Positions 14,572-24,717 of a stretch of DNA of 64,000 nt are shown one piece after another; position 1 is the stretch's first letter; each line of letters begins with the position of its first letter. A program made the position numbers and the translations under genes. The stretch spans positions 1 to 64,000 of the forward strand of contig JAGWLO010000002.1 in assembly GCA_028872015.1 (NCBI GenBank), given 5' to 3'. Origin of the DNA: Burkholderiales bacterium (GTDB taxonomy: Bacteria; Pseudomonadota; Gammaproteobacteria; Burkholderiales; Burkholderiaceae_C). A model generated the notes under the pieces. It saw nothing but the letters and a program-made list of their open reading frames with translations. It had not been told where the DNA came from and ran no database searches.

Positions 14572-15264
14572 TCAGCCCGCCGGCGCGGCCGCGGCGATGG
14601 CCGCCAGCACGGCAGCGGACGGCGCCGACCAGCCGACGATGCCGCCCTGCGCCGTGATCATCGCCAGCGTGGCCTGCTTGTACTCGGGAAAGTAGCTCTC
14701 GGTGGCGTCCTCGACCACGAGACAGTCGTAGCCGCGGTCGTTGGCCTCGCGCATGCTGGTCTGCACGCAGACCTCGGTGGTGACGCCCGTGAACAGCAGC
14801 TGCGTGATGCCGGCGCCCTGCAGCCGCGCCTGCAGCCCTGCGGGCGGGCAGGTGGCCCAGAACATGCCCTTGCCCGGCTTGTCGACGACCCATTCACCGG
14901 CCACCGGCGCCAGCGCCGCGATGATGTCGGCGCCCGGCTCGCCCGCGATCAGCACGCGCCCCATCGGCCCCGGGTCGCCGATGCGCAGCGGCGGCCGGCC
15001 CCGCTCGCGCTTGGCCGGCGGGCAGTCGCTCAGGTCGGGGCGGTGGCACTCGCGCGTGTGCAGCACCGGCCAGCCGCGCGCGCGCCAGGCCGCCAGCAAG
15101 GCGGCGATGGGGGCGATGGCCGGCTGCAGCCGCGTCACGTCGTTGCCCAGGCTGGCGCCGAAGCCGCCGGGCTCGATGAAATCGCGCTGCATGTCGATGA
15201 CCACCAGCGCCGCGCGCCCGGGCTCGAGCGCGTAGTCGCAGGGCCGGGCGGCGATCCGGATCAT
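14572..15264 (-). CDS. isochorismatase-like cysteine hydrolase (ureide/amide)
   Basis: Cysteine amidohydrolase of 230 residues. The triad is Asp24 in VVIDMQRDF, Lys129 in VDKPGKGMF and nucleophile Cys166 in [39 protein letters not shown] and the GPMGR/GEPGADI segments match the biuret/triuret hydrolase-type subfamily rather than true isochorismatases. It overlaps the ABC ATPase stop (ATGA) and ends the transporter operon. It is a paralogue of the biuret-hydrolase-like gene two positions upstream. In the triuret pathway a related enzyme (TrtA) releases carboxybiuret, so this copy could take a different substrate of the same route; that is inference. Confidence 0.85.
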
Positions 15265-16889
15265 GCGGCGGCCTGCAGCGGCGGCGGGCTCGGGATGCGG
15301 CCGTCGCCGGCCGGCACGTCGTGGGCGCCGGGTCCGCCGGGTCCGCCGTGCCTGGCCGGGGCGGCAGCGTCCCCATGGCCTCCCATGTGCGCCCCCAGCG
15401 TGCGCCGGTCGGCGCCGCGGGCGTCGCACTCGAACACGATGCGCCCGCCGCTCATCACCACGATGCGGTCCGACAGGTGCAGCAACTCGTCCAGGTCTTC
15501 GCTCACCAGCAGCACTGCGGTGCCGCGGTTGCGGGCCGCCACCAGGCGGGCGTGGATCTCGGCCACGGCGGCGAAGTCCAGGCCGAACACGGGGTTCGAG
15601 ACCAGCAGCAGGTCGGCGGCCTCGGCCAGCTCGCGGGCCAGCACGGCGCGCTGCACGTTGCCGCCCGAGAGCGAGCGCATGGGCGCGCCTGCGCCCTGCG
15701 TCTTGATGCCGTACTCGGCGATCAGGCGCCGCGCGCGCTCGGCGATCACGCCCCAGCGCAGCCAGCCCCCGCGCGCCGCGGGGGCGGTGTCGAACACGCG
15801 AAGTGCCATGTTGTGGCCCACCGCCAGATCGCCCACGCAGGCGTTGCGCAGCGGCTCCTCGGGCAGGCTGCGCACGCGCAGCCGGCGGTTCTGGGCCCGG
15901 GTGGCGTGGAAGCGCTCGCCCGAGACGCGCACCTCGCCGGCGTCGATCGCGCGCTGGCCCACCAGCGCCTCCATCAGCTCGCGCTGGCCGTTGCCCGAGA
16001 CCCCGGCCACGCCCACGATCTCGCCGCCGGCCACGTTCAAGGCCAGGCCCTGCACGGCGCGCTCGCCGCGGTCGCCCGAGACCCGCAGGTCGCGCACCTG
16101 CAGACGCGCCGCCCCGGGTGCGTTGCGTTCACGGATCAAGGGCGCCTGCGCCGCGCTGCGGCCTGCGCCCACCATCGCCGCGGCGAGCCGGTCCGCGCCC
16201 ACCTCGGCCACGGCGTGGCTGGCCACCAGCGCGCCGCGCCGCAGCACGCTCACGTCGTCGGCATGCTCGGCCACCTCGCGGAACTTGTGCGTGATCATCA
16301 CCACCGTGCAGTCGCCGGCGTGGGCGCGTGCCTTCAGCAGGCCCAGCACCTCGTCGGCCTCCTGCGGCGTGAGCACCGAGGTGGGCTCGTCCAGGATCAG
16401 CAGGCGCGGCCGCAGGTACAGCTGCTTGAGGATCTCGAGCTTCTGCTTCTCGCCCGCCGAGAGGTCCTGCGGCGTGGCATCGAGGTCGAGCTGGAAGGGC
16501 GTGGTCTGCAGGAAGGCGCCGAGCTCGGCGCGCACCGCCTTCCAGTCGATGACCGCCGGCAGCCGGCCGCGCGCCAGCAGCAGGTTCTCGGCCACCGTCA
16601 TGCCCGGCACCACGGTGAAGTGCTGGTACACCATGCCGATGCCGAGCTGGCGGGCGACGGCGGGCGAGTCGACGGCCTGCTCGCGGCCGTCGATCAGCAC
16701 GCTGCCGGCGTCGGGCGCGACGTAGCCCACGATGCATTTCACCAGCGTGCTCTTGCCGGCGCCGTTCTCGCCCAGCAGCGCGTGCACGGTGCCGGGCCGC
16801 ACCTTCAGGCTCACGGCGTCCAGCGCGGTGAAGGCGCCGAAGCGCTTGGTGAGCTCGAAGGTCTGCAGGCTCAGCGCGTGCATCGTCAT
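15261..16889 (-). CDS. BMP/nucleoside-type ABC importer, double ATPase subunit
   Basis: Energises the importer formed with the two permeases and BMP-family binding protein of this operon. It has 542 residues and two ABC domains. The first has [22 protein letters not shown] and [12 protein letters not shown]. The second has the degenerate Walker [10 protein letters not shown] and [15 protein letters not shown], as usual for YufO/NupO-like proteins, where the second site is often weak. Its Walker B region reads [13 protein letters not shown] Pro/Gly/Ala-rich tail of about 40 residues ends the protein. The ATG at 16889 overlaps the upstream hydrolase stop (ATGA); MTMH offers a second ATG at 16883. 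Confidence 0.93.
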
Positions 16890-17569
16890 GGCGCCGCCAG
16901 GGCATCGATCAGCGCCACCGAATCCGTCACCGCACCGAACACGCCGCCCTGCATCAGCACCATCTTCAGCGCCGCTTCGTGGTTGCCGCGGTCGGTGGCG
17001 CCGGTGGCGTCGTCGACCAGCACGCACTCGAAGCCGCGGTCGTTGGCCTCGCGCATCGTGGTGTGCACGCAGACGTCGGTGGTGATGCCCGTGAGCACCA
17101 GGTTGCGGATGCCGCGCGTGCGCAGGACGAGCTCGAGGTCGGTGGCGCAAAAGCTGCCCTTGCCGGGCTTGTCGATCACGATCTCGCCGGCCAGCGGCGC
17201 CAGCTCGGGGATGATTTCCCAGCCCGGCTCGCCACGCACCAGGATCCGGCCGCAGGGGCCGGCGTCGCCGATCCCGGCGCCGATGCGTTGCGAGCGCCAG
17301 CGCTTGTTCGCCGGCAGGTCCGCCAGGTCGGGGCGGTGGCCCTCGCGGGTGTGGATGATGGTGAAGCCGCGCGGCCGCATCGCCGCCAGCAGGGCGGCGA
17401 TCGGGGCGATCGGCGCCCGTGTCAGGCCGAGGTCGTAGCCCATCTTGTCCACGTAGCCGCCGACGCCGCAGAAGTCGGTCTGCATGTCGATCACGACCAG
17501 CGCCGTGTTGGCCGGCCGCAGGTCGCCGTCGAACGGCCAGGGGTAGGGTTGCGCGGCGACGGTGGGCAT
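16886..17569 (-). CDS. biuH: biuret hydrolase-like cysteine hydrolase
   Basis: Isochorismatase-fold amidohydrolase of 227 residues that strongly resembles biuret amidohydrolase (biuret to allophanate plus ammonia). The triad is Asp28 ([11 protein letters not shown]), Lys134 ([14 protein letters not shown]) and Cys167 ([18 protein letters not shown]). The glutamine in VLMQGGVFG is at the position important for BiuH specificity, and [17 protein letters not shown] is the subfamily signature. [15 protein letters not shown] at 17569 was taken as start, 4 bp after the formamidase gene; the track start 11 codons upstream overlaps that gene. Triuret hydrolase (TrtA) is a close relative and cannot be excluded from sequence alone. 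RutB is less likely. Confidence 0.82.
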
Positions 17570-17573
17570 CGCC

Positions 17574-24463: not shown

Positions 24464-24654
24464 TCGCCGACCTCGGGGCAGACGGGGGTGAACACGCTGC
24501 CCGACTCGTCGGCGGCGCCCAGCGGCAGGCCCTGCAGCAGCTCGGCCATCTCGGCGGCCAGGCCGAAGTACAGCGCCACGCCGGCGCGGTATTCGGCGGC
24601 GATCTTCAGGCCCAGGGTCTGGGCGGCGGCGTCGATGTAGGCAGCGTGGTCCAT
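24460..24654 (-). CDS. atzG: AtzG-like subunit (DUF4089)
   Basis: A 64-residue GatC-like protein starting MDHAAYIDAAAQTLGLKI. AtzG/HpxX proteins stabilise the AtzE-type amidase. The two predicted helices, around IAAEYRAGVALYFGLAAEMAELLQ, and the Pro-rich C-terminus match DUF4089. It was too short to be reported as such in the ORF track, which shows a 13-codon upstream extension. First gene of the atzG-atzE-atzH-gntR operon, 33 bp downstream of the second palindromic element. Confidence 0.84.
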   Translation of the reverse strand: MDHAAYIDAAAQTLGLKIAAEYRAGVALYFGLAAEMAELLQGLPLGAADESGSVFTPVCPEVGE

Positions 24655-24686
24655 GCGAAAGGGGAGGGGTGGACGGGCGCCGGGAC

Positions 24687-24717
24687 GGTGCACCTGGCGG
24701 TATACCAGAGCGCGTGC
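24687..24717. promoter_or_regulatory. palindromic operator, copy 2 (GGTGCAC-N5-GGTATACCAG)
   Basis: GGTGCAC, five bases, then GGTATACCAG and later GTGC, in the same order and spacing as copy 1. The inner GGTATACC (24699-24706) is a perfect palindrome, though the outer left arm is imperfect (CTGGC instead of CT). It sits 33 bp before the atzG-like ATG, where a repressor would cover the promoter. The 130-bp gap to the glutathione reductase gene holds nothing else I recognise. Confidence 0.75.

Follow-up and report, generated by a model that had tools for sequence, protein, structure and literature searches.

An eleven-gene cluster in a Burkholderiales bacterium of the family Burkholderiaceae_C appears to encode a regulated nitrogen-scavenging system for linear ureides that would follow a triuret/biuret route, a reading to which we assign, from sequence comparison, a probability of about 0.82. 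The cluster lies in the 64,000-nucleotide stretch analyzed here (contig JAGWLO010000002.1 of assembly GCA_028872015.1, positions 1–64,000 of the forward strand; hereafter the window), where its genes occupy 14572–24654 on the minus strand. They are densely packed, many overlapping or almost touching, and run in the order atzG-atzE-atzH-gntR and then BMP-permA-permB-amiF-biuH-ATPase-trtA, with a single clear intergenic gap of ~170 bp from gntR to BMP. A preliminary description had placed a BMP-type importer, a formamidase-like amidase, and two cysteine hydrolases in one operon and AtzG-, AtzE-, and AtzH-like proteins with a GntR regulator in another. All of these genes were recovered on the minus strand when families were assigned with NCBIfam models at their curated cut-offs and with Pfam. 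Nearly all of the proteins scored far over the Pfam or NCBIfam cut-offs, and the AtzG match was weak but specific. The Pfam families matched were Isochorismatase, CN_hydrolase, Bmp, BPD_transp_2, ABC_tran, AtzH-like, Amidase, and GntR with FCD.

24460–24654, minus strand: atzG, 64 aa, GatC-like partner of AtzE, matching AtzG 6c62_C (E = 2.7e-4)
23045–24463, minus strand: atzE, 472 aa, Ser-cisSer-Lys amidase of the 1-carboxybiuret hydrolase type
22656–23045, minus strand: atzH, 129 aa, DUF3225/NTF2-fold protein (PF11533)
21952–22659, minus strand: gntR, 235 aa, FCD-type regulator (PF00392 and PF07729)
20666–21778, minus strand: BMP-family periplasmic binding protein, GTG start, AtzT-related
19538–20623, minus strand: importer permease A, permA (PF02653)
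18610–19524, minus strand: importer permease B, permB (PF02653)
17574–18590, minus strand: amiF, nitrilase-superfamily formamidase (NF009803; match to 5g3o)
16886–17569, minus strand: biuH, biuret hydrolase, cysteine hydrolase 1 (NF050097, identity, and residues)
15261–16883, minus strand: importer ATPase with two ABC domains (PF00005, two stretches)
14572–15264, minus strand: trtA, triuret hydrolase, cysteine hydrolase 2 (identity and residues)

Multiple comparisons support the predicted pathway. First, the gene arrangement is not a chance one. The BMP-biuH-ATPase-trtA core was compared over 80 TrtA loci of Alpha- and Gammaproteobacteria (with Burkholderiales among them) and recurs in one fixed order in 61–74 of them depending on the gene: the ATPase was present in 74, BiuH in 69, the permeases in 64–67, and BMP in 61, and many of the absences are truncated contigs. 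In a survey of 201 genomes from the source organism's own family, BiuH occurred in 49 genomes (51 copies), TrtA lay within 8 kb of 48 of the 51 copies, and AtzF was encoded in 48 of the 49 genomes. Two genomes of the same genus lacked BiuH, AtzH, and AtzF, and neither encoded an AmiF over the cut-off; gain or loss thus seems to affect the whole pathway at once, even though AtzF is unlinked.

Second, both cysteine hydrolases can be assigned, one as a biuret hydrolase and the other as a triuret hydrolase, and with both named, what had been a loosely defined 'ureide' cluster becomes a specific prediction of a triuret/biuret pathway. The BiuH protein was 75% identical to Rhizobium leguminosarum BiuH, scored 418 bits against the equivalog cut-off of 370 of NF050097, and kept both the Asp-Lys-Cys triad of the isochorismatase-like family and the Lys145/Gln215 equivalents (D, K, C, K, Q). 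The TrtA protein fell under the cut-off of the BiuH model and was 64% identical to Herbaspirillum TrtA, compared to 48% for BiuH. At positions 35, 41, 160, 187, and 205, which are among the residues listed as distinguishing TrtA from BiuH (PMC7948467), window TrtA carries the series F, N, E, Y, and I, compared to Y, Y, D, T, and V in window BiuH. This split was kept in 79–80 of the 80 TrtA sequences and in 67 of 67 BiuH sequences, with at most one exception per site. Window TrtA also has the TrtA-type Q202; the exception to the specificity set is Met at position 134, which was found likewise in 44 of 80 relatives. Near residue 138, past the catalytic lysine region, window TrtA carries a four-residue insertion (CPPA), and a similar one was seen only in locus L007 among the sequences viewed.

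Third, the AtzGEH proteins match those characterized from Pseudomonas ADP. AtzE scored 549 bits against AtzE 6c62_A and 710 bits against NF006631 (cut-off 461), kept the catalytic Lys and the GGSSGGS and GSDTNGS motifs, and has its small AtzG partner encoded just upstream. AtzH scored 137 bits against AtzH 6bjt and 185 bits against the HpxZ/AtzH model NF033625 (cut-off 135), and in alignment retained both Tyr22 and Arg46, reported as catalytic in the Pseudomonas ADP protein (PMC6219798). Finally, the same genome encodes AtzF on another contig (C24; 764 bits against a cut-off of 511) and urease on contig C135, which makes the predicted route from triuret to ammonia complete on paper.

The BMP-type importer would take up triuret, biuret, and related ureides, and TrtA would convert triuret to carboxybiuret and ammonia. 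AtzEG is predicted to deaminate carboxybiuret to 1,3-dicarboxyurea, which AtzH would convert to allophanate. Spontaneous decarboxylation would turn some carboxybiuret into biuret, and this biuret, like imported biuret, would reach allophanate through BiuH. Allophanate would then be hydrolyzed by AtzF, and urease may catch urea leaking from dicarboxyurea or allophanate. Sequence comparison shows which genes are present, how they are ordered and conserved, and that the genome encodes AtzF and urease; every reaction is carried over to the source organism from characterized relatives. The earlier proposal of triuret/biuret-type nitrogen catabolism, with its own importer, to allophanate and ammonia is well supported by the specificity residues of BiuH and TrtA and by the AtzF and urease genes of the genome. 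Triuret and biuret are fertilizer impurities, and triuret is also a product of urate oxidation; through these sources the pathway would touch environmental nitrogen use.

Two palindromes suggest how the operons may be regulated:

24698–24707: GGTATACC palindrome (CGGTATACCA), putative GntR operator before atzG, one mismatch to TGGTATACCA
21866–21875: TGGTATACCA palindrome (GGTATACC type), putative GntR operator before the BMP operon, exact match

The window holds three matches to this palindrome compared to 0.12 expected, a count reached in none of 100 shuffles; the third lies within the ATPase gene (16624) and is probably due to chance. A GTATAC-centered palindrome stood 50–200 bp before BMP in nine of nine relatives with gntR directly upstream of BMP, and ~0.2 such palindromes would be expected in BMP promoters over 17 loci. 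Where gntR was placed elsewhere, the palindrome was mostly not found before BMP. These sites are consistent with control of both operons by the FCD-type GntR protein through the two GGTATACC palindromes.

The binding protein of the importer scored 206 bits against AtzT 6pi5, with 39% identity. AtzT binds guanine (PMC6834077), and its guanine-pocket set (Tyr45, Ser97, Glu165, Trp194, Asn218, and Asn220) is incomplete in the cluster protein, which keeps the Tyr, Ser, and Trp residues and carries E165Q, N218H, and N220D replacements. His218 and Asp220 (AtzT numbering) were invariant in 61 of 61 cluster BMP proteins. A separate BMP protein of the same genome (G000:C131:48484-49284, L002) was 54% identical to AtzT and keeps more of the guanine pocket. 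Because the pocket is altered and a closer AtzT relative is encoded elsewhere in the genome, the ligand of the cluster protein is probably not guanine, and we infer that it is a linear ureide.

The cluster also carries a formamidase gene, whose link to biuH is close. AmiF scored 557 bits against NF009803 (cut-off 406) and 368 bits against 5g3o (49% identity) and kept the catalytic Glu-Lys-Cys residues and the second Glu, as in formamide hydrolases. All 27 AmiF-type formamidases over the cut-off in the family survey (26 genomes) adjoined biuH, 26 of them directly upstream and one (in G330) directly downstream; genome G279 has the amiF-biuH pair twice, on contigs C2 and C6. In a sample of phylum genomes used for replication outside the family, AmiF occurred in 15 genomes, three of them from the source family. 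The permB-amiF-biuH order was present in five genomes of four other families, and in seven AmiF genomes no biuH stood beside AmiF in the fetched stretch. Since AmiF neighbors biuH in other families too, yet is missing from many clusters, it is a real but optional member. Among cultivated relatives, Leptothrix discophora and Methylibium have similar clusters with trtA, biuH, and atzE, and the cluster of Hydrogenophaga flava includes amiF. Its presence did not correlate with AtzH type among the family genomes (p = 0.48). Why a formamidase over the cut-off should occur only beside biuH in Burkholderiaceae_C is a testable question.

Under our working hypothesis, AmiF most likely completes the use of formyl-ureides. 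BiuH or TrtA would deaminate formylurea to N-formylcarbamate, which would lose CO2 to give formamide, and AmiF would release formate and ammonia. Formylurea is proposed as the link because it is the second-best substrate of TrtA after triuret (PMC7948467) and because its deamination product should decarboxylate to formamide. A fuller version, in which AmiF is a dedicated partner of BiuH and TrtA, the cluster also degrades formylurea or formylbiuret (e.g. from oxidized purines or pyrimidines) through formamide, and the importer forms part of a separate BMP subfamily whose His218/Asp220 pocket is suited to linear ureides, is possible but tentative.

Several observations weigh against the triuret/biuret reading or its formyl-ureide extension. 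The nearest relatives (L007–L009) carry the core and no AtzGEH in the fetched flank, and the palindrome before atzG was not found in the relatives examined. AtzH of the AtzGEH type occurs without biuH in 16 family genomes, so AtzGEH has another role in those genomes at least. About half of the biuH clusters lack AmiF, and the AmiF proteins that occur alone elsewhere are nearly the same in sequence, with no clear pocket difference inside compared to outside clusters; thus, nothing in AmiF itself points to a special substrate. On formylurea, TrtA reaches just 0.3% of its triuret activity (PMC7948467), and we found no assay of BiuH on formylurea. All co-occurrence counts given here are raw, with phylogeny left uncorrected.

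In a first alternative, AtzG, AtzE, and AtzH form an HpxXYZ-type oxalurate module that merely neighbors the triuret/biuret core, with AtzH or spontaneous CO2 loss handling carboxybiuret and BiuH doing the rest. The 16 family genomes without biuH fit this alternative, as do some alphaproteobacterial loci in which AtzH stands behind trtA without AtzE and some nitrifiers with the oxalurate genes allFGH beside triuret genes (PMC12625717). The NCBIfam name of window AtzH, at the score given above (185 bits, cut-off 135), is HpxZ, and 2rcd, which we take to be a Pectobacterium protein, shares a part of the AtzH tree with the window protein. The HpxZ model may not discriminate, as Pseudomonas ADP AtzH falls in that same part of the tree. 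An hpxW/ggt-like neighbor, as in Enterobacteriaceae, was not noticed among the window genes read (without a hidden Markov model scan or a search of the rest of the genome), and the 549-bit score of AtzE is to a characterized carboxybiuret hydrolase.

The distribution of AtzH types also speaks against an oxalurate module. AtzH-like genes of the biuH genomes fell into two classes by position and score. Class 1 proteins, including window AtzH, scored 159–215 bits with the HpxZ model, and in linked cases their genes lay mostly upstream, where atzGE stands. Class 2 proteins scored 123–152 bits, and their genes lay 2.1–2.8 kb behind the trtA start, after atzF. Among the 49 biuH genomes, 37 had class 1, 10 had class 2, none had both, and two had neither (p = 8e-9; raw genome counts, kinship ignored). 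This pattern is expected if the two types serve the same carboxybiuret step. In PMC12625717, trtB stands beside trtA, biuH, and atzF, and atzH is named in the abstract; from this setting we infer that TrtB is an AtzH-family protein and that the class 2 gene behind trtA-atzF is probably trtB. Window AtzH has neither the position behind trtA-atzF nor the low HpxZ score of that type and belongs to the AtzGE-linked one. Replacement of one class by the other suggests that both serve the carboxybiuret step, indirectly favoring carboxybiuret over oxalurate as the predicted AtzEG substrate. We therefore regard the oxalurate alternative, which the preliminary description had also named, as unlikely at this locus while retaining it. 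Mutual exclusivity of AtzGEH and TrtB was not described in the portions of the literature on triuret and atz clusters available to us, and whether the two are interchangeable ways to handle carboxybiuret is a second testable question. A long-stem AtzH clade stands behind trtA without nearby atzE (L030, L034, L043, L044, L060, L063, L069, L074, and L081) and may mark a transition from AtzH toward a TrtB-like function.

In another alternative, a larger formylated or cyclic precursor (an oxidized purine, 5-azauracil, or formylbiuret) is degraded, deformylation is done directly by AmiF, and triuret and biuret arise along the way instead of being imported. The exclusive adjacency of amiF and biuH, the pocket remodeled relative to the guanine-binding protein with its invariant His218 and Asp220, and accessory genes in relatives, MTHFS-like or 2-oxoglutarate-oxygenase-like, could all be explained in this way. 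By contrast, the window cluster has no ring-opening enzyme, the catalytic residues of AmiF are of the formamide-hydrolase type, and about half of clusters do without AmiF, which makes import of such a precursor improbable. A cyanuric-acid pathway of the AtzD type, in which ring-opened cyanurate would be the substrate of BiuH and AtzEG, is very improbable: cyanurate pathways are known to have AtzEG, AtzH, AtzF, BiuH, and an AtzT-like binding protein in their surroundings (PMC6219798; PMC6834077), but no AtzD/TrzD family member was found in the genome (a weak negative, as the search had no positive control), TrtA is present instead and would make the same intermediate from triuret, and the BMP pocket residues differ from those of AtzT.

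The triuret/biuret reading is in keeping with known systems, none of which matches the window in full. Like the TrtA-BiuH-AtzF triuret operon of Herbaspirillum sp. BH-1 and R. leguminosarum (PMC7948467), the window has clustered TrtA and BiuH orthologs with the same specificity residues and AtzF in the genome; it differs in that AtzF is unlinked, AtzGEH would take the place of TrtB at the carboxybiuret step, and AmiF is added. The nitrifier clusters trtA-biuH-trtB-atzF-bmpA-nupABC-gntR likewise keep a BMP importer, biuH, trtA, and gntR together but have a trtB-type gene in place of atzGEH, and no formamidase is reported in the available portions of that account (PMC12625717). With the atzDGEHF and atzRSTUVW operons of Pseudomonas sp. 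ADP (PMC6834077; PMC6219798), the window shares AtzGEH, a BMP-type importer, and one regulator for two operons; it has an FCD GntR protein instead of AtzR, no AtzD that we found, and an altered AtzT-like pocket. Window AmiF shares its catalytic residues with the formamidases 5g3o and 2dyu and differs from them in its setting inside a biuret/triuret cluster.

Closely similar published clusters are those drawn in Figure 6C of PMC6219798 for Rhodoferax, Variovorax, Rhizobacter, Leptothrix, and Methylibium (AtzF-AtzGEH-ABC-amidase). In these Burkholderiales clusters, ABC transporter and 'amidase' genes come after atzGEH in the same orientation, and in our sample the Leptothrix, Rhodoferax, and Methylibium loci (L011, L048, and L025) have the same gene order as the window. 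As far as the available text goes, the amidases were not assigned there to BiuH, TrtA, or AmiF or to a pathway; in our source genome, atzF lies on another contig. Because closely similar clusters appear in that figure and in PMC12625717, the system itself is not new, and the earlier view that the combination is undescribed holds only in part: similar clusters were already drawn for Leptothrix, Methylibium, and Rhizobacter. We did not find the exclusive AmiF-biuH link described in the open literature, and earlier work on biuH neighborhoods (Robinson 2018; Aukema 2020) may have noticed it. Relative to the published accounts, insofar as these were available, the additions here are the AmiF-biuH exclusivity, the AtzGEH/TrtB exclusivity, and the GGTATACC palindrome before both operons.

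Some further genes lie at the edges of these loci. In the window, a glutathione-reductase-like gene stands ahead of atzG, and a 251-aa open reading frame (13717–14472, minus strand) with zero Pfam matches lies directly behind trtA. In alphaproteobacterial triuret loci (L026, L030, L034, L044, L060, L063, L069, and others), an MTHFS-like (5-formyltetrahydrofolate cyclo-ligase) gene, identified by eye, recurs between trtA/atzE and atzH. A 2-oxoglutarate/Fe(II) oxygenase-like gene of the isopenicillin N synthase type, also identified by eye, recurs upstream of BMP in L026, L027, L030, L043, L045, L046, L055, L063, and L069.

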